This document shows positions 15,271 through 24,635 of a stretch of DNA of 38,454 bases, piece by piece. The stretch's first letter is position 1. Each line of letters begins with the position of its first letter. The stretch is from Verrucomicrobiia bacterium (lineage in GTDB: Bacteria; Verrucomicrobiota; Verrucomicrobiia; Limisphaerales; Fontisphaeraceae), in the NCBI GenBank assembly GCA_026414565.1, contig JAOAIT010000005.1, positions 1 to 38,454 on the forward strand, read 5' to 3'. Under the pieces are notes generated by a model. It made no database searches, was not told the origin of the DNA, and saw nothing but the letters and a program-made list of their open reading frames with translations. A program made the translations under genes and the position numbers.

Positions 15271-16056
15271 ATGGAAGTCATCATTCAACAAGATGCGGAG
15301 GCCGCCTCGCTGTTGGTGGCCAAATTGATCGCCAAAGCGCTGCGTGAGAATCCATTTTTGGTGCTGGGCCTGGCCACGGGCGGCACGATGGAGGCGGTGT
15401 ATGCCCATTTGGTGCGGATGCACAAGGAGGAGGGGCTGGATTTTTCCCTGTGCCGGACGTTTAATCTGGATGAGTATGTGGGGCTGCCACCGGAGGATCC
15501 GAATACGTACCGGCAGTACATGCAGCGGCATTTGTTCAGCCATGTGAACATCAACCCGCGGATGACGCATCTGCCCAATGGCATGGCGGCGGATTTGGAG
15601 CGGGAGTGCGAGGAGTACGAGAAACTGATCAAACGCTTTGGGGGGGTGGATTTGCAGTTGTTGGGGATAGGACGGGACGGGCACATTGGCTTCAACGAGC
15701 CGCTGTCGGCGCTGCTGTCGCGGACGCGGGTGAAGGCGTTGACGCCGACGACGGTGGCGCAGAACGCGATTTACTTTGGGGATCCCAACAAGGTGCCGCG
15801 CCGGGCGATCACGATGGGGGTGGGGACGATTCTGGATGCGCGGCGGTGTTTGTTGCTGGCGACGGGGGCGCATAAAGCGGAGATTGTGGCGAAGGCGGTG
15901 GAGGGGCCGGTGACGGCGATGATTTCGGCGACGGCGTTGCAACTGCATCCCAAATGCACGGTGGTGGTGGACGAGGCGGCGGCGTCCAAGCTGCAGGGGC
16001 ATGAGTATTATCGGTGGATATTCCAGACCGAGCCGGAGTGGGCGGAGTATCGGTGA
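15271..16056 (+). CDS. nagB: Glucosamine-6-phosphate deaminase
   Basis: A 261-residue cytoplasmic enzyme that converts glucosamine-6-phosphate to fructose-6-phosphate and ammonia. The phosphate-binding LGLATGGTM loop, FNLDEYVGL with D67, and [14 protein letters not shown] with D136, H138 and E143 give the full catalytic set. The later segment ([31 protein letters not shown]) also fits NagB. It is followed 3 nt later by a divergent paralog and then a UroD-superfamily gene, with the kinase-MurQ fusion convergent downstream, so it probably serves amino-sugar or peptidoglycan-derived sugar catabolism. The 174-nt spacer to the divergent yjhG has no promoter I would defend. Confidence 0.94.
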
Positions 16057-16059
16057 GCC

Positions 16060-16860
16060 ATGAGTTTAATGCACGCGTTCAAGGTGGAGGCGCTGGCGGT
16101 ACGGGTGTATGACAGCCAGCCCGCGATGGCGGCGGCGGCCGCGGCGGAGGTGCGGGATTATCTGGCCGCGGTGCTGGCCGCGCAGGGGCAGGCGCGGGTG
16201 ATTCTGGCGTCGGCGGCGTCGCAGGAGCAATTTTTGGCGGCGCTGACGGCGCTGCCGGGGGTGGAGTGGGGGCGGGTGCGGCTGTTTCACATGGATGAGT
16301 ATTTGGGGATCAGCGCGGAGCATCCGGCGAGTTTTCGGCGGTTTCTGCGGGAGCGGGTGGAGTTGAAGGTGCGGCCGCTGGCCTTTCATTATATTCAGGG
16401 GGAGGCGCTCGAGCCGTTGCAGGAGATCGAGCGTTACACGGCGCTGCTGAGCGAGGGGCCGGTGGATTTGTGTTGTCTGGGGATTGGGGAGAACGGGCAC
16501 ATTGCCTTTAATGATCCGCCGGTGGCGGACTTTGCGGATCGGCGGGTGATGAAGCTGGTGCAGTTGGACGAGCGATGCCGGCGGCAGCAGGTGGGGGAGG
16601 GGGCGTTTCCGAATCTGGCGGCGGTGCCGCAATACGCCTATACGCTGACGGTGCCGGCGCTGTGTGCGGCGCGGAAGATGGTGTGCGTGGTGCCGGAGCG
16701 GCGCAAGGCGGAGGCGGTGCGGCTGGCGTTGGCGGGGCCGGTGAGCACACAATGTCCGGCCTCGATTCTGCGGCGGCAGCCGCAGGCGGTGTTGTATTTG
16801 GATGCGGAGTCGGCGGCGGAGCTGTCGCCGGAGCTTTTGGGGGGACGGGAGGCTGCATGA
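16060..16860 (+). CDS. Divergent NagB-family sugar-phosphate isomerase/deaminase
   Basis: A 266-residue paralog of NagB belonging to the glucosamine-6-phosphate isomerase / 6-phosphogluconolactonase family. HMDEYLGI (D79) and [14 protein letters not shown] (H147) are kept, but the ring-opening pair is N145 and D152 where the upstream enzyme has Asp and Glu. The phosphate loop reads [11 protein letters not shown] and lacks the GG of the canonical loop. It therefore may act on glucosamine-6-phosphate or on another amino-sugar phosphate; the substrate is not certain. The ATG at 16060 comes 3 nt after the nagB stop, and its own stop overlaps the next start (ATGA), so the three genes appear translationally coupled. 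Confidence 0.85.
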
Positions 16861-17831
16861 GTTTGCCCTTCACGCCGGCGGTGTATGAGCACGCGGCGCG
16901 GTTTGTGGGGCGGACGCCGTGGGAGGTGTCGCGCGATGCGGAGCTGTTGTATGCGGGGCATCGGGCGGCCTGGCTGGCCTACCGGCATACGCCGGTGGTG
17001 GTGGGGATTGATATTTACAATTTGGAGGCCGAGGCCTACGGGGCGCGGGTCACGGTGCCGGAAGGCAACGGCATACCGGCGATCCATGAGCCGTTGGTAG
17101 GGAGTCTGGAGGAGGGGCTGGCGCTGCGTCCATTTGATCCGCAGCGGGATGGGCGTCTGCCGATGGTGATTGGGGTGGGGCAGCGGCTGAAGCACGAGCT
17201 GCCCGAGGCGGATGTGCGAATACCGGTGGCGGGGCCGTTTTCGGTGGCGTTCAACCTGCGGGGCATACAGAACCTGTGCGAGGATGTGGCGTTGCGTCCG
17301 GAATTGACGGCGCGCTGGTTGATGCAACTGGCGGAGCATCAGGCCCGGTTTTGCCGGGCCATTGCGGCGGCGGGGCTGGAGATAGCCTTTTTTGAGTCGG
17401 CCGCGGCGCCGCCGCTGCTGTCGCCGCGGCAATTTCGTGAGGTGGAGCTGCCGGCGTTGAGGCGGATCCTGGCGCTGGCGGCCGAGATTGTGGGGCATCC
17501 TGTGCCGTGCATCATGGGGGGAGACACTTATCGCATTTATGACGACTTGATGTCCACCGGCACGCAATTTGTGGTGTGCAACGTGGAGACGGATCAGGCG
17601 GCGTTTGTGGCGCGGGCGCGGGTGGAGCATCCGCAGGTGCGGATTCGGGTGAACATGGACGCGGCGATTGTAGCGTGCGAGGAGCCGGAGCGGATTTACC
17701 GGGAGATAGATCGGATCGTGGCGCTGACGCGGGGGCATCCCAACTGCCTGCTGGGGACGGGCTGCCTGCCTTACGAGACCCCGCCGGCGAATGTGCAACT
17801 GATCAAGGATTATCTGGCGACTCTGCCCTGA
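16857..17831 (+). CDS. Uroporphyrinogen decarboxylase-superfamily protein of unknown substrate
   Basis: A 324-residue TIM-barrel protein of the URO-D / MtaA superfamily. It has the G-x-D-x-YNLEAEAYGA start segment and a C-terminal LLGTGCLPYETPPAN with Cys303, both typical of the superfamily. The HemE arginine-rich start (RQAGRY) is absent, so it is unlikely to be the haem-pathway decarboxylase. The spot where corrinoid methyltransferases have the zinc-binding H-x-C-G reads CIMGGDT (residues 218-224), so two zinc ligands appear to be missing. The start overlaps the NagB paralog stop by the ATGA arrangement, and the 3' end overlaps the convergent kinase-MurQ gene by 22 nt. The function is unknown; context suggests sugar metabolism. 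Confidence 0.8.
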   Translation: MSLPFTPAVYEHAARFVGRTPWEVSRDAELLYAGHRAAWLAYRHTPVVVGIDIYNLEAEAYGARVTVPEGNGIPAIHEPLVGSLEEGLALRPFDPQRDGRLPMVIGVGQRLKHELPEADVRIPVAGPFSVAFNLRGIQNLCEDVALRPELTARWLMQLAEHQARFCRAIAAAGLEIAFFESAAAPPLLSPRQFREVELPALRRILALAAEIVGHPVPCIMGGDTYRIYDDLMSTGTQFVVCNVETDQAAFVARARVEHPQVRIRVNMDAAIVACEEPERIYREIDRIVALTRGHPNCLLGTGCLPYETPPANVQLIKDYLATLP

Positions 17832-19639
17832 GCGGGACGGCGGCGGGCCAGCCGGCGGACGGCGTGGCGAATGTGCCAGTCGCAGTCCTGGAGGGTGGCG
17901 TGGGCGACTGCGGCGGAGACCCCGGCGAGCTGGGTGACGATGCGGACGGCGCGGGCGCGCAATTTGGCATTGGTGGGGCGCATGTCCACCATCCAATGGC
18001 CCAGGACCTTGCCGAGTTTTACCATGCTGAGGGTGGAGATGAGGTTGAGGGCGAGTTTGGTGGCGGTGCCGGCCTTGAGGCGGGTGGAGCCGGTGAGCAC
18101 TTCGGGGCCGGTGGGAAGGCACAGCGCATGGTGTGGTTGGTCTTCGGGGGGCAGTACGAGGCGCGGATTGCAATGGAGGAGGGCGGTGCGCGCGCCTTGT
18201 TGGCGGGCCTGGCGCAGGGCGGCCAGGACGAAGGGGGTGCGTCCGCTGGTGGCGATGCCAAGGACGACATCGCGGGGGGTGATGCCGCGGCCCACGATGG
18301 CAAGCCGGGCGGCCTCGACGTCATCCTCGGCGCCTTCCACGGCGTGAGAGACGGCAGGCGGCCCGCCGGCCATGATGGCTTGCACCATGTCCGGGGGGAC
18401 GCTGAAGGTGGGGGGGCACTCGCTGGCGTCGAGGATGCCCAGGCGTCCGCTGGTGCCGGCGCCGACATAAAAGAGGCGGCCGCCGTGACGGAAAGCACGG
18501 ACGACGTGGCGGATGAACTGCTCCAAATCGCGGGCGGCGGCGCGCACGGCGTGGGGAGTGTTTTGCTCCTCGCGCAACATCAATTCAATGGCGGCGGACA
18601 AGGGCAGGCGATCCAGGTGGCGGGAGCGGGGGTTGGGTTCTTCAGTGGGGGAGAGCACGGGGCTGAGTTTGAAGGGCGGCGGTGAAGGTGGCGCGGAGGC
18701 AGCAACTTGAGCCCCGGCCATTTGGGCGGCGAGGTGAACGGCGCCCCAGGCGCTTTCGCGGCCGAGTTTGACTACGCGGGCCTGGGGCCAGCGGGCGCGA
18801 ATTTCGCGGGTGACCAGGGCAGCAAAGCGGGGCTGTTTCAAGAGGGTGCCGCCGGCCAGGATAAACTCGACGCGGGCGCGGGGGGGCGCCATGCGCCGGG
18901 CACAGGCGGCGGCGTCGGTGGCGAGATGGATGGCGGCTTCGCGCAGGACGGCTTGGGCGTGGCGGTCGCGGTGATGGGCGGCGTCAAAGACGGTGACGGC
19001 GAGGGCCGCCATCTGGTCCTTGGTGGCGGTTTTGGCCCAGTCAATGAGGTCTTCGGGCACATTCAAATGGAGGCGGGCGAGGAATCGCGCGCCGAGGGAG
19101 GGCCAGCGGCGGGTGTGGTCGTAGATGGCGAGAGTTTGGCGCAGGGCGGTGAGGGCAATCCAATAGGCACTGCCCCAGTCGCCCAGCAGATGGCCCCAGC
19201 CGCCGGTGCGGATGCCGCGTCCGCCAGCCTGGCCGTAGCAGCAGGAGCCAGTGCCACTGAGGACGAGCACGCGGGGGAGGGGCTGGCGGGCGGGTTGAGC
19301 GGCCAGGGCGGTTTCCAGGTCGTTGGTGGCCAGGCAGGGCACATTGGGCCAGCAGCGGGCGGCGGCGCGGCGGATGCGCTCGCGGTCAGATTCCAGGCGC
19401 GCGCCGGGCAAACCGATGGCCACGGCGTCCGGGCGGGGGAAAAGATGGGCGATTTCGGCGAGGAGGCGGGACAACTGATCATCGGAAAGCAAATGGAGGT
19501 TGGCCGGGCCGCCTTCCCAGCGCTGGACTTGCCGGCCATGGACAAACAGGGCGACGGTGGAGGTGCCGCCGCCTTCGATGCCCAGCAGTCTGGGGGAATT
19601 GGGTTTGTGGGCCGGCGTCAATGCCATGGGGCCCATCAT
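17810..19639 (-). CDS. murQ: Fused BadF-type amino-sugar kinase and N-acetylmuramic acid 6-phosphate etherase
   Basis: A 609-residue two-domain protein. Residues 17-310 form a BadF/BadG/BcrA/BcrD-type kinase: LGIEGGGTST, VLSGTGSCCYG, GGWGHLLGDWGSAYW and ILAGGTLL. A linker rich in Ala, Pro and Ser (311-330) follows. Residues 331-600 are a full-length MurQ: TEEPNPRS start, GAGTSGRLGILDASECPPT with E407, AVEGAEDD with E438, SGRTPFV, GPEVLTGSTRLKAGTA and STLSMVKLGKV. MurQ cleaves the lactyl ether of MurNAc-6-phosphate to give GlcNAc-6-phosphate and D-lactate. The kinase half resembles the MurK type, which phosphorylates MurNAc and GlcNAc, so one protein could do both steps (inference). Start codons at 19639, 19636 and 19627 are all possible. 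It follows cysA by 74 nt on the same strand. Confidence 0.9.
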   Translation of the reverse strand: MMGPMALTPAHKPNSPRLLGIEGGGTSTVALFVHGRQVQRWEGGPANLHLLSDDQLSRLLAEIAHLFPRPDAVAIGLPGARLESDRERIRRAAARCWPNVPCLATNDLETALAAQPARQPLPRVLVLSGTGSCCYGQAGGRGIRTGGWGHLLGDWGSAYWIALTALRQTLAIYDHTRRWPSLGARFLARLHLNVPEDLIDWAKTATKDQMAALAVTVFDAAHHRDRHAQAVLREAAIHLATDAAACARRMAPPRARVEFILAGGTLLKQPRFAALVTREIRARWPQARVVKLGRESAWGAVHLAAQMAGAQVAASAPPSPPPFKLSPVLSPTEEPNPRSRHLDRLPLSAAIELMLREEQNTPHAVRAAARDLEQFIRHVVRAFRHGGRLFYVGAGTSGRLGILDASECPPTFSVPPDMVQAIMAGGPPAVSHAVEGAEDDVEAARLAIVGRGITPRDVVLGIATSGRTPFVLAALRQARQQGARTALLHCNPRLVLPPEDQPHHALCLPTGPEVLTGSTRLKAGTATKLALNLISTLSMVKLGKVLGHWMVDMRPTNAKLRARAVRIVTQLAGVSAAVAHATLQDCDWHIRHAVRRLARRRPAQGRVAR

Positions 19640-19713: not shown

Positions 19714-20817
19714 TTAGATGCCTTCGCCCAGGTTGGGGGGCATTTCGATGATCTGGCTGGTTTCGGGGGGAAGGGGCGCGCCTTCCTGGGCGAGGATGCG
19801 GTAGGCTTTGATTTGGAAGGAGACCTCGCAATTATCATGGAGGCCCAGGGCGTTGTATTCCTCCTTGGTCATGCGGGCGCGGAGGGTGAGGCCGGAGGGG
19901 AGCTCCAGTTCAAGGCGCAGCATGATGCCGAGGAAGAACGTGTGGCGGAGGACGGCGCGATAACGGTATTGGGTCAGGTCGGGGGAAATTTGCACGGCAT
20001 AGGGCCGGAAGCCGATGCGCATGGCCTGGCCTTCATTCAGGCCGTGGGCGGGGAATTCCAATTCGCCGCAGCGGGCGCGGCCGTTTTGGACGACTGTTTC
20101 CAGCACGTTCATGACGCCGACGAAGCGGGCCACGAATTCGTTGGCCGGCTGCTCGTACACCTCGCGGGGGGAGCCGATTTGTTCGAGGCGGCCGCGGGAG
20201 AAGATGGCGATGCGGCGGCTGACCTCCATGGCCTCCTCCTGGTCGTGCGTGACGAAGATGGTGGTGAGGTTCAGTTCGTCGTGGAGGTGCACGAGCCATT
20301 CGCGGAGCTCCTGGCGGATTTTGGCGTCCACGGCGCCGAAAGGCTCGTCGAGGAGGAGCACGCGGGGCTGGATGGCGAGGGCGCGGGCAATGGCGACGCG
20401 CTGGCGCTGGCCGCCGGAGAGCTGGTGGGGGTAACGCTGGCTGAGGCCCTCGAGGTCAAACAGCTTCAACAATTCCTGAACGCGGCGGGCCTGGTCGGCG
20501 GGTTTCCATTTTTTGATTTTGAGGCCGAAGGCGATGTTGTCAAAGACGTTCATGGTTTTGAAGAGCGCGTAATTTTGAAAGACGAAGCCGATGTTGCGGC
20601 GTTGGACGGGGACGTGATTGACGCGCTCGCCATGGATGAAGATGTCGCCTTCGGTGGGTTCCTCGAGGCCGGCGATCATGCGGAGGACGGTGGTTTTGCC
20701 GCAGCCACTGGGGCCGAGGAGGGCGAGCAGCTCGCCGTCCTGGACTTCGAGGTTGACGCGGCTGACGGCTTCGACGTTGCCAAAGCGTTTGGTGAGATTG
20801 CGGAGTTGGATGCTCAT
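19714..20817 (-). CDS. cysA: Sulfate ABC transporter ATP-binding protein CysA
   Basis: A 367-residue ATPase that powers sulfate/thiosulfate uptake at the inner membrane. Walker A GPSGCGKTT (35-43), Q-loop QNYALF, signature LSGGQ (133-137), Walker B VLLLDEP (153-159) and the THDQEEAMEV H-loop are all intact. RKNIGF-like VQRRNIGFVFQ and the C-terminal regulatory part (from about 235, with RIGFRPYAVQ) are typical of CysA-type importers. Its start overlaps the cysW stop by 4 nt, so the two are coupled. It is the last gene of the sbp-M14-cysT-cysW-cysA set. Confidence 0.93.
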   Translation of the reverse strand: MSIQLRNLTKRFGNVEAVSRVNLEVQDGELLALLGPSGCGKTTVLRMIAGLEEPTEGDIFIHGERVNHVPVQRRNIGFVFQNYALFKTMNVFDNIAFGLKIKKWKPADQARRVQELLKLFDLEGLSQRYPHQLSGGQRQRVAIARALAIQPRVLLLDEPFGAVDAKIRQELREWLVHLHDELNLTTIFVTHDQEEAMEVSRRIAIFSRGRLEQIGSPREVYEQPANEFVARFVGVMNVLETVVQNGRARCGELEFPAHGLNEGQAMRIGFRPYAVQISPDLTQYRYRAVLRHTFFLGIMLRLELELPSGLTLRARMTKEEYNALGLHDNCEVSFQIKAYRILAQEGAPLPPETSQIIEMPPNLGEGI

Positions 20818-21743
20818 GCGTTCCCTGAATGCCCGGAATTATTTGGCGGCGGGGTTTCGGCGCCTTGCTGGGCCAGCAGCTCCTCGCGGGCCACGCGCCA
20901 CTCCAGCCAGGTTTTAATGACAAGGGTAAGGAGGGCCAGGAGGGCCAGGAGGCTGGCGACGGCGAAGGCCCCGGCCGCATTGTATTCGTTGTAAAGTTTT
21001 TCCACCCGCAGGGGGAGGGTGTCGGTCAAGCCGGCGATGTGACTGGAGACGACGGAGACGGCGCCAAATTCGCCCATGGCGCGGGCGTTGCAGAGGATGA
21101 TGCCATAGAGCAGGCCCCATTTGACGGAGGGGAGCGTGACATGCCAGAAGGTGCGCCAGCCGCTGGCGCCGAGGGTGAGGGCGGCCTGTTCCTGGTCTGA
21201 ACCGGCGGCCTGCATGACGGGAATAAGCTCGCGGGCGACGAAGGGGAAGGTGACAAACAGCGTGGCGAGCACCATGCCGGAGACGGAGAAGACGATGTGG
21301 ATGCCGCGGTCGCGCAGCCACTCCCCCAGGAAGCCCTGAGCGCCGAAGAGGACAACGATCATCAGGCCGGAGACGACGGGGGAGACGGAGAAGGGGAGGT
21401 CAATCAGGGCGGTCAGGATGGACTTGCCGCGGAACTCAAATTTGGCGATGGCCCAGGCGGCGGCCAGACCGAAGAGGCAATTCAGGGGGACGCAGATGGC
21501 GGCGATGGTGAGGGTTAGCTTGATGGCTGCCAGCGTGTGGGGGTGGGTGATGGACTGTTGGTAGTAGTGCCAGCCCCGGCTGAGGGCCTGGGCAAAGACA
21601 TTGGCCAGGGGCAGAAAGAGAAACACGACGGCAAAGGCCATGGCCAGGAGGGTCAGCCCCCAGCGGACCCAGGCGGGTTCATCCGTGCTGCGGCGCAAGG
21701 CCCGGCGGGGCGCGTGCATTTGACTTTTGACGTGGCCTGCCAT
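20814..21743 (-). CDS. cysW: Sulfate ABC transporter permease CysW
   Basis: A 309-residue inner-membrane permease with about six hydrophobic segments, starting with WGLTLLAMAFAVVFLFLPL. The cytoplasmic EAA-type loop that contacts CysA is seen in EQAALTLGASGWRTFWHVTL. IDLPFSVSPVVSGLMIVVLFG and GEFGAVSVVSSHIAG are typical of CysW. The C-terminal tail ends in a short charged segment. It follows cysT by 15 nt and overlaps cysA by 4 nt. Pairing with CysT as a heterodimer is expected from the family. Confidence 0.92.
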   Translation of the reverse strand: MAGHVKSQMHAPRRALRRSTDEPAWVRWGLTLLAMAFAVVFLFLPLANVFAQALSRGWHYYQQSITHPHTLAAIKLTLTIAAICVPLNCLFGLAAAWAIAKFEFRGKSILTALIDLPFSVSPVVSGLMIVVLFGAQGFLGEWLRDRGIHIVFSVSGMVLATLFVTFPFVARELIPVMQAAGSDQEQAALTLGASGWRTFWHVTLPSVKWGLLYGIILCNARAMGEFGAVSVVSSHIAGLTDTLPLRVEKLYNEYNAAGAFAVASLLALLALLTLVIKTWLEWRVAREELLAQQGAETPPPNNSGHSGNA

Positions 21744-21758
21744 GGGAGTTGTTGGGGG

Positions 21759-22583
21759 TTATTCCTGGAAACGTCCGGCCCAGCGTTCGATGGTATTGAC
21801 GACGGCCAGGAGGACGAAGGAGACGGCCAGCAGCACCACGGCCATGGCCATGGCACCGAGGTAGTTGTATTCCTCCAGGCGGGTGACAATGAGGTAGGGG
21901 GCGATCTCGGTACGGTAGGGGAGGTTGCCGCTGATGAAGACGATGGAGCCGTACTCTCCGATGGCGCGGGCAAAAGACAGGGCGAAACCGGTGATCATGG
22001 GTGGCAGGAGCATGGGCGCGATGACCCGGGTAAAGGTACGCCAGCGGCCAGCGCCCAGGCTGGCGGCGGCCTCCTCGACATCGCGTTCGAGGGAGGAGAG
22101 CACGGGTTGGAGGGTGCGGACCATGAAGGGCAGACCGACGAAGGTCAGCGCAATGACGACCCCCAGGGGGGTGAACGCGCCCTTGATGCCCAAGGGCACG
22201 AGGTAACGGCCGAGCCAGCCGTTTTCGGCAAACAAACTGGCCAGCGTCAGCCCTGCCACAGCGGTGGGCAGGGCGAAGGGGAAGTCCACCAGGGCATCCA
22301 CGAGCCGGCGGCCGGGGAATTCGTAGCGGGTGAGGACCCAGGCCAGAAGGGTGCCGAAGAGGGCGTTGATGAGGGCGGCGCACAAAGAAGCGCCGAAGGT
22401 CAGGCGGTAGGCCGCCAGGGCGCGTTCACTGATGGCTTCGCGCCAGAAGTCGGACCAGCTCAGCTCCGCGACCCGCCAGAGCAGGGCGCCGATGGGCAGC
22501 AGCACCACCAGGCTCAAGTAAAAGAGCGTGAAGCCCATCGTCAGGCCGAAGCCGGGCAGCAGGGTGGTTTTGCGCGTGGACAT
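21759..22583 (-). CDS. cysT: Sulfate ABC transporter permease CysT
   Basis: A 274-residue inner-membrane permease with a first membrane segment TLFYLSLVVLLPIGALLW, the DALVDFPFALPTAVAGLTLA segment characteristic of CysT (CysU), and the EAA loop EEAAASLGAGRWRTFTRVI. GEYGSIVFISGNLPYRTEIAP is also typical. It sits 49 nt downstream of the M14-type hydrolase gene and 15 nt upstream of cysW, in one minus-strand run from sbp. Confidence 0.93.
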   Translation of the reverse strand: MSTRKTTLLPGFGLTMGFTLFYLSLVVLLPIGALLWRVAELSWSDFWREAISERALAAYRLTFGASLCAALINALFGTLLAWVLTRYEFPGRRLVDALVDFPFALPTAVAGLTLASLFAENGWLGRYLVPLGIKGAFTPLGVVIALTFVGLPFMVRTLQPVLSSLERDVEEAAASLGAGRWRTFTRVIAPMLLPPMITGFALSFARAIGEYGSIVFISGNLPYRTEIAPYLIVTRLEEYNYLGAMAMAVVLLAVSFVLLAVVNTIERWAGRFQE

Positions 22584-22632
22584 TAGTTTGGCAATCTAGC
22601 TTTTGTCTAAGGTTTTTTTGAAGCGCTGCCAA

Positions 22633-23484
22633 TTACAAATTGGCGGCGTAGGCGATGAACTGGCGATATTCGGCCAGCAACGTGAGGACTGCCTGTGCCA
22701 GCGCCTCGAGTTTGGCGGGCAAAGCGCCAGCGCGCGGACTTTCGAGGATGACATCAAAGGGCTGCGGGCTTTGGTCCGGGGGGCCATGCAACACGCCGGG
22801 GAAACCCTCGCGGATGATTCCGTCGCGGGCGGGAAAGCCGTCAATGATGGTGGCGCGATTGAGGGGCACAAACTTTTCCGCCGCCGCCAGGGCCGGGGGC
22901 AGGAGGTGCTCACTCAGTGAAGCGCCGCTGGCATAGCCGTAGAAGCCGGGGCTGGTGTCGTCGGTGTGCAAGGCAATGAGGCCATGCAGACGGTGGGAGC
23001 GCAGCTCGGCCTCCAGGAGTTGTACTTCGGGTTCCGCGCTGCCGCGCCAGAATTCGCGGTTGAGGTCCCGGCCGGAGGCGGATTCGCGGGTGCCGGCGGC
23101 GAGGCCGGTGGGGTTGCAAAGCGGATAGACATAGAGACAATAGCCTTCGGCCAGGGCGGGTTGACGGGCGCAACGCTCCAGAAGCTCCAAGGCGGCCAGC
23201 ACACCCTCCGGTTCATCCCCGTGCAGGCCGGCGAAGATGGCGATGCGGAGGGGGTCGGCGCCGGTTTGAGGTCCAAGGAAAATGAAGCGGGGAAGCTCGA
23301 TGGTGAGGGGGCCGTTGGAGGCGGTGGATTTTAATGGGGCAAGGTCCAGGAAGGCGGGGTGATGAGCCGCCAGGTTATGGAGCGTGGCAAGACGCTGTTG
23401 GATGAGGGCGCATTCGTGCATGAGCTGATGACGACTGATTGTGTCGTGATTATGCGGTGGAGCAATGAGAGATGCAAGTGGCAT
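22633..23484 (-). CDS. M14-type zinc hydrolase (succinylglutamate desuccinylase/aspartoacylase-like)
   Basis: A 283-residue protein of the M14 metallopeptidase / aspartoacylase superfamily. The zinc ligands H88 and E91 lie in GLHGDEPEG, and the third ligand H173 in ALHTDDTSPG. The substrate-binding NPTG...R...GRDLNREF pattern and a late catalytic Glu (E248 in DVILESPRA) complete the active site. There is no clear signal peptide, so it is probably cytoplasmic. Members cleave carboxy-terminal residues or N-acyl amino acids. It lies inside the sulfate operon, 11 nt after sbp and 49 nt before cysT, which is not where such a gene is usually found. The start at 23484 is the first ATG; 23421 is an alternative. 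Confidence 0.85.
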   Translation of the reverse strand: MPLASLIAPPHNHDTISRHQLMHECALIQQRLATLHNLAAHHPAFLDLAPLKSTASNGPLTIELPRFIFLGPQTGADPLRIAIFAGLHGDEPEGVLAALELLERCARQPALAEGYCLYVYPLCNPTGLAAGTRESASGRDLNREFWRGSAEPEVQLLEAELRSHRLHGLIALHTDDTSPGFYGYASGASLSEHLLPPALAAAEKFVPLNRATIIDGFPARDGIIREGFPGVLHGPPDQSPQPFDVILESPRAGALPAKLEALAQAVLTLLAEYRQFIAYAANL

Positions 23485-23495
23485 GTGTTTTTGAA

Positions 23496-24635
23496 TTATT
23501 GGGATTTGAACTTGCGGCGAAGCATCTGGTCGAATTCGCCGTTTTCGGCAAAGTGCCTTTTTTGGGCGGCCTGCCAGCCGCCGAAGATTTGGTCCACGGT
23601 GACCAGGCGGGTTTCGGGGAATTGGTGGCGGAATTTCTGCAGGACTTCGGGGTTGCGGGGGCGGAAGAAGTGGCGGGCGGCGATTTCCTGGGCTTGCGGG
23701 GTGTAAAGGAATTCCAAGTAAGCGCGGGCGAGGTCGAGGGTTTTGCGGCGCGCGGCGACGCGGTCCACGACGGCGACGGGAGGTTCGGCCAGGATGCTGA
23801 GGGAGGGGACGACGATTTGGACTTTGCCCTTGCCGGCTTCGCGCAGGGCAAGGAGGGCTTCGTTTTCCCAGGCGATCAGGACGTCGCCAATGCCGCGTTG
23901 GATGAAGGTGGTGGCGGCGCCGCGGGCACCGGAGTCCATGATGGGGGTGTTTTGGTAGATGGCGGTGACGAATTCGCGGACTTTGGATTCGTCGCCCTGA
24001 AATTTTTCGAGGGCGAAGGCCCAGGCGGCGAGGTAATTCCAGCGGGCGCCGCCGGAGGTTTTGGGGTTGGGGGTGACGACTTTGACATCGGGGCGGATCA
24101 GGTCGGGCCAGTCGCGGATGCCTTTGGGGTTACCCTGCCTGACGAGGAAGACGATGATGGAGGTGTAAGGGGAGCTGTTGTGGGGCAGGCGTTGCTGCCA
24201 GTTGGTGGGCAGGAGCCGGGCTTTTTCGGCGATGGCATCAATGTCATAGGCCAGGGCCAGGGTGACGACGTCGGCATCGAGGCCGTCAATGACCGCACGG
24301 GCCTGTTTGCCGGAGCCGCCATGGGACTGGAGAATGTTGATTTTCTGGCCCGTTTTATCCAGCCAGAGCCGGGAGAAGACCTGATTAATTTCGGTGTAAA
24401 ACTCGCGCGTTGGATCGTAGGAGGCGTTGAGGAGGCGGGTTTCGGTGGCCGCGTGCAGGGGAAGGGGGAGCAGGCCGGCAAGGGCGAGACTCAAGGCCAT
24501 CCATAGAACGAAGAGCGATTGCCGGGAGGGGATGGTGGGCGGGGCATGAAGGGGACGAAGCCAAACGGCCGGGCGCGGCCCGTGGGGGCGGGCCTGGCTT
24601 TGGGCCAGTGCTTGATTTGTTGTCTGTGGCTTCAT
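23496..24635 (-). CDS. sbp: Periplasmic sulfate-binding protein
   Basis: A 379-residue solute-binding protein that captures sulfate for the CysTWA transporter. The mature part shows the Sbp/CysP family signatures: [71 protein letters not shown] and ENEALLA. The signal region is long: the hydrophobic core ([20 protein letters not shown]) begins only at about residue 41, after a basic, Pro-rich stretch. No other in-frame start leaves an n-region, so the ATG at 24635 is kept. It is first in the operon and divergent from the Rrf2 regulator. Confidence 0.92.

Follow-up and report, generated by a model that had tools for sequence, protein, structure and literature searches.

A single gene in the window, the whole stretch of 38,454 nucleotides analysed here, joins a BadF/NAGK-type sugar kinase to a MurQ-type etherase, and sequence comparison together with a structural model makes it very probable that the product is a bifunctional MurNAc kinase/MurNAc-6-phosphate etherase (MurK-MurQ). 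The fusion is real and widespread in Verrucomicrobiota. The N-terminal kinase would transfer phosphate from ATP to the O6 position of free MurNAc, D107 serving as the base, and the tethered MurQ domain would remove D-lactate from MurNAc-6-phosphate via E407 and E438, with the resulting GlcNAc-6-phosphate expected to pass to NagA-like and NagB enzymes. The complete conversion of MurNAc to GlcNAc-6-phosphate may accordingly be assigned to one gene in this phylum, which would explain why no separate MurNAc kinase has to be expected there. The chemistry is already known, and the arrangement appears to be what is new. Among the titles and beginnings of abstracts listed in searches of open-licence literature, none concerned a BadF-MurQ fusion; the word 'fused' does not occur in the available text of PMC10465942, nor 'fused' or 'fusion' in that of PMC5061867, PMC5790795, PMC13041923 and PMC4432640. 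The open-licence papers listed likewise included no study of MurQ-based peptidoglycan salvage in Verrucomicrobiota.

Gene structure and domain assignment

The gene is located on the minus strand, with 609 codons at 17813-19639 and the stop codon at 17810-17812, and it is read as one frame of 609 residues ending in a terminal stop, which is also a single frame in relatives, whereas the plus-strand reading of 17810-19639 is broken by an internal stop. The preliminary description had given the same span, which holds, and lacked the strand, which is now supplied; its account of one polypeptide composed of a BadF-type kinase, a Pro/Ala linker and MurQ is borne out by the translated frame and by Pfam and NCBIfam matches. 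A URO-D/MtaA-type methyltransferase-like gene at 16857-17831 on the plus strand overlaps the fused gene tail to tail, the two 3' ends sharing 22 bases.

The kinase domain comprises residues 17-310 (18710-19591, minus strand) and matches BcrAD_BadFG (PF01869) at residues 19-300 with 77.8 bits against a cut-off of 31.5, while the AnmK domain PF03702 is absent from the six Pfam families matched by the protein. The top NCBIfam model for this part, NagK_SO3507, scores 77.5 bits, far below its cut-off of 370. Among solved structures, 8zo3, a Clostridium acetobutylicum kinase acting on MurNAc and GlcNAc, is the closest to the kinase half (E 4.9e-27, and E 4.7e-56 with a profile), followed by the hexokinase of Sulfolobus tokodaii and human NAGK. 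The phosphate-binding GGGT motif, SGTGS, GGWGH and the catalytic Asp can all be recognised.

An Ala/Pro-rich linker (residues 311-330; 18650-18709, minus strand) leads to the MurQ-type etherase domain at residues 331-598 (17846-18649, minus strand), and across 19 alignment rows the linker varies from 25 to 43 residues and is unconserved in sequence. The etherase domain passes the NCBIfam MurQ models NF003915 (at 331-598, E 1.2e-102, 343 bits, cut-off 168) and NF009222 (284.9 bits, cut-off 255), and narrowly misses the equivalog model TIGR00274 (297.4 versus 302). SIS-type Pfam models, including those of SIS domains of the glucokinase regulatory protein (GKRP), match within residues 366-530, and among solved structures the etherase half matches the MurQ entries 4s12, 4lzj and 1nri. 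The two glutamates named in the preliminary description, E407 (18419-18421, minus strand) and E438 (18326-18328, minus strand), are both present, and we take them to be the catalytic glutamates of MurQ; each is Glu in 37/37 fused rows, and Glu is also found in 66/66 and 64/66 other rows, respectively. From the alignments, L006 was left out of A1 and 36 of 96 candidate rows out of A3.

The AlphaFold2 model, built as a single chain from 60 sequences, has a mean pLDDT of 93.2 and a pTM of 0.77, with pLDDT below 50 at residues 1-10, 315-320 (in the linker) and 607-609. Its comparison with known structures by VIA-align gave Z scores of 35.0 to MurQ 4lzj, 34.6 to 4s12, 31.8 to MurK 8zo3 (rmsd 2.7 over 292 residues) and 24.6 to Tannerella MurK 8oqw.

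Each half of the protein thus has a well-matched stand-alone counterpart. MurK of C. acetobutylicum is the best match of residues 15-309 in both sequence and fold, and shares the GGWGH loop and the Asn preceding the catalytic Asp, but it is a separate protein of 306 residues, and its GIDGGG and GDEGS motifs carry Asp and Glu where the fused protein has Glu and Trp. The MurQ proteins of Haemophilus influenzae (4lzj) and Yersinia enterocolitica (4s12) are 42% and 44% identical to the etherase half, respectively, and contain both catalytic glutamates, but they lack a kinase domain. The murTKQ operon of Tannerella forsythia, as described in the available text of PMC10465942 and PMC5790795, offers the closest parallel in reaction order, since a kinase and then an etherase act on free MurNAc, as is predicted for the fused route; its genes are, however, separate, and its kinase is distant (16% identity, Z 24.6) and has another specificity loop.

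The order of the domains, kinase followed by MurQ, is also the order of the reactions. The likeliest benefit of the fusion is the 1:1 dosage of the two activities and the closeness of the two sites, since the linker sequence is not conserved and was modelled with low confidence; a true channel carrying MurNAc-6-phosphate between the sites is a matter of speculation. A one-polypeptide enzyme of this kind would provide a direct test bed for the tethering or channelling of that intermediate.

Distribution of the fusion

The preliminary description proposed a search by domain architecture, and a frame test with domain profiles showed, for 42 of 58 genomes of the order (Limisphaerales), a single open frame containing both domains; in three of the 42 (G032, G054 and G056) a contig end truncates the gene inside a domain. 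Because both domains share one frame in so many genomes, an assembly error is ruled out. The remaining 16 genomes include five without any match (G006, G035, G040, G045 and G049), three in which fragments lie at contig ends (G004, G015 and G047), seven with remote matches only, and G038, in which a kinase of the fused type stands alone as a complete frame of 374 residues (L186, G038:C60). MurQ gave no match in the G038 genome, so this kinase may have lost its etherase half, or the frame may be broken. Across the phylum, the fusion was found in 10 of 115 genomes of at least 90% completeness, drawn from a larger group. A search of the source genome with the fused gene matched that gene alone.

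Among 130 loci, 52 contain both domains in one frame (47 once five repeats are removed), with the kinase N-terminal to MurQ in all 52. From at least 590 candidates, the best 80 were kept on the basis of how closely they resembled the fused query, and their counts accordingly do not represent a random sample; these 80 comprise 22 fused loci (21 from Verrucomicrobiota by title and one from Anaerolineales), 16 with a separate kinase gene next to murQ (in Poribacteria, Bacillota, Alphaproteobacteria and Planctomycetota) and 42 in which murQ alone was recognised. The adjacent, unfused pairs in these 16 of the best 80, together with C. acetobutylicum MurK being the closest solved kinase, agree with the parallel to the Clostridium MurK drawn in the preliminary description. 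In the split loci L088, L091 and L122, murQ comes first. A candidate second fusion in Gemmatimonadales (L084) was discarded, as by eye the part preceding MurQ looks like read-through upstream of the real start.

Kinase motifs and substrate range

The predicted catalytic base, D107 (19319-19321, minus strand), corresponds to D95 of Tannerella MurK, which is the catalytic base according to the available text of PMC10465942, and is Asp in 33/33 main fused-clade and 17/17 split kinases that have a letter at this position. Two other motifs deviate from the common form. The Glu of GIEGGGT is present in 32 of 33 main fused-clade rows with a letter there, whereas all 17 split kinases have Asp; Asp also occurs in L029, L030, L073 and L013, the last having been thinned out before the 33-row count. 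The Glu of GDEGS is missing from 34/34 main-clade rows (L056 has Asp there) and present in 16 of 19 split kinases and in L029. The preceding Asp (D154), whose MurK counterpart binds O1 in Tannerella (PMC10465942, available text), is kept in 34/34 main-clade rows.

The preliminary description took these motifs as a sign that the substrate may differ, a suggestion that found no support: human NAGK also has Glu in GIEGGGT and, according to the available text of PMC9477735, phosphorylated MurNAc to levels like those of GlcNAc. As the changes are clade-wide and one of them is common to NAGK, they contain no independent hint of another substrate, although the lost Glu of GDEGS may have brought about a shift in specificity.

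In Tannerella MurK, S133-P134-L135 and T94 make room for the lactyl group (PMC10465942, available text). By alignment mapping, T94 corresponds to N106 of the fused protein, S133-P134-L135 to Gly-Gly-Trp, and N119 to C133; C. acetobutylicum MurK has Asn, Gly-Gly-Trp and Ile at these three places. Human NAGK also has Gly-Gly-Trp in the loop, and both NAGK and C. acetobutylicum MurK are reported, in the available portions of the sources, to be active on MurNAc. Within the main clade, the loop is Gly-Gly-Trp in 27 and Gly-Gly-Arg in 7 of 34 kinases, and position 106 is variable (n=33: Asn 14, Ser 7, His 5, Glu 4, Asp 3). R81, which is Arg in 22 of 33 main-clade rows, was considered as a binder of the lactyl carboxylate; the idea was not retained as a finding because 14 of 17 split kinases have Arg one position later, and the alignment of this loop could be shifted by one position.

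GlcNAc is probably a further substrate of the kinase, since the nearest characterised kinase, C. acetobutylicum MurK, accepts both sugars (PMC5790795 and PMC4432640, available text). One protein would then direct both peptidoglycan sugars into GlcNAc-6-phosphate.

Pathway genes and genomic neighbourhood

In the genome of origin, whose assembly is 97% complete, AnmK, the AmpG-like permease model TIGR00901, PTS EIIC and GH3 gave no match, which makes free MurNAc released outside the cytoplasm the likeliest source of substrate; judged from these gene searches, neither PTS uptake of MurNAc nor entry of anhydroMurNAc is apparent. The NagA and MurNAc uptake genes that the preliminary description had singled out for checking were thus recovered in part: a NagA-like protein is encoded, scoring 144.6 bits against a cut-off of 225.65, and no uptake gene of the AmpG-like (TIGR00901) or PTS EIIC type was matched. 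The free MurNAc might be supplied by the exo-muramidase NamZ, which is present with both its domains (L156:7566-8798, G000:C28; E 1e-81). NamZ occurs in 31 of 42 genomes of the order with the fusion versus 11 of 16 without it, so it was rejected as a co-occurring partner across the order, and its link to the fusion is circumstantial, being no commoner with than without. The NamZ match of many relatives lies within an open frame of approximately 780-860 residues, which may represent a fusion of its own, and within 7 kb of NamZ the genome of origin has one gene of the beta-lactamase family and another for a PIG-L deacetylase.

The later step of the proposed route is represented in the window by nagB, encoding glucosamine-6-phosphate deaminase, at 15271-16056 on the plus strand, opposite to the fused gene (TIGR00502, 292.8 bits, cut-off 236.9), which is followed in tandem by a second, divergent NagB-like gene at 16060-16860, also on the plus strand, that scores 103.6 bits, below the same cut-off. 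The notion of a conserved amino-sugar neighbourhood was nevertheless abandoned, as NagB was found near the fusion in only 2 of 43 loci, both of the source genus. The gene mnmE is near the fusion in 12 of 43 loci, the hit at L140 being weak, with flank lengths that differ among loci. On the other side of the fused gene, the region 19714-24635 (minus strand) encodes ABC transporter components, namely a CysA-like ATPase, a solute-binding protein and two permease-looking frames, amid which lies an aspartoacylase/succinylglutamate desuccinylase-like gene at 22633-23484.

Alternative explanations

Several other readings of the same architecture have to be weighed. It is unlikely, though credible, that the kinase serves mainly GlcNAc or another amino sugar, and that the fusion merely packages the use of GlcNAc together with that of MurNAc-6-phosphate obtained from elsewhere. 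The best NCBIfam kinase model is indeed a NagK model (NagK_SO3507, well short of its cut-off), both 8zo3 and human NAGK bind GlcNAc according to their structure titles, position 106 is Asn where Tannerella MurK has Thr, and in G038 the kinase of the fused type occurs alone. However, no other source of MurNAc-6-phosphate is seen in the genome, in which neither AnmK nor PTS EIIC was matched, and in several phyla the kinase accompanies murQ, either as a fusion or as a neighbouring gene.

It is very unlikely that one domain regulates the other and that one of the active sites has fallen out of use in the cell. The model for such an arrangement is GKRP, a MurQ-related SIS protein that forms complexes with glucokinase, an actin-like-fold sugar kinase (titles of 3w0l and 4lc9), and the MurQ domain matches the GKRP SIS domains; that pair, however, consists of two proteins with a regulatory role, whereas the fused protein is one chain, the main clade has retained the catalytic residues of both domains, and the score to the MurQ subfamily model is strong. 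Hardly any weight falls on the idea that kinase and etherase end up as separate polypeptides, through translation or processing, leaving the fusion purely formal. An in-frame Met, M307, is present at the start of the linker, but no purine-rich ribosome-binding site was seen by eye upstream of it in the window sequence, a relative of approximately 80% identity (L002) has a linker without Met, and the frame is uninterrupted in 42 of the 58 Limisphaerales genomes.

Origins of kinase-MurQ fusions

Phylogenetic trees comprised 58 of 68 rows for the kinase and 83 of 113 for MurQ, five repeated loci and low-scoring domains having been removed beforehand. In the midpoint-rooted kinase tree, 34 fused rows lie on one side together with the long-branched split pair L032/L033; L029/L030 (assigned to Puniceicoccaceae through the repeat L095) and L073 (Anaerolineales) are placed with kinases that are not fused. 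The MurQ tree groups 32 fused rows with the unfused L090 (98/90) and sets L029, L030 and L073 apart. A single clade of all fused rows was rejected by the MurQ tree (p-AU 0.022) but not by the kinase tree (p-AU 0.187).

A rarer architecture suggests that kinase-MurQ joins arose more than once. At L037 (1489-3138, minus strand), L038 (556-2202, plus strand) and L160, a ROK-family kinase is fused to a shortened MurQ-like domain, in which the first catalytic Glu is kept and the second is placed by eye in a GEED motif, the alignment being displaced by one; this fusion was found in 3 of 60 genomes of its Verrucomicrobiota family, in two genera. Being built on another kinase family, it looks independent of the BadF-MurQ fusion. 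A broader and rather improbable idea is that SIS proteins of the MurQ family and sugar kinases of the actin fold are intrinsically prone to associate with each other, an association that would have been fixed by fusion more than once in bacteria (in the main BadF-MurQ clade of Verrucomicrobiota, perhaps separately in Puniceicoccaceae and in Anaerolineales, and in ROK-MurQ); the GKRP-glucokinase pair of vertebrates would then be a late regulatory use of this ancient association, and the fused enzymes may pass MurNAc-6-phosphate on across a shared interface. At L041-L050, two MurQ-like halves occupy one frame in 10/10 loci, and the one frame of this set that was scanned with Pfam (L042:550-2445, minus strand) has a match to the GKRP N-terminal SIS domain.
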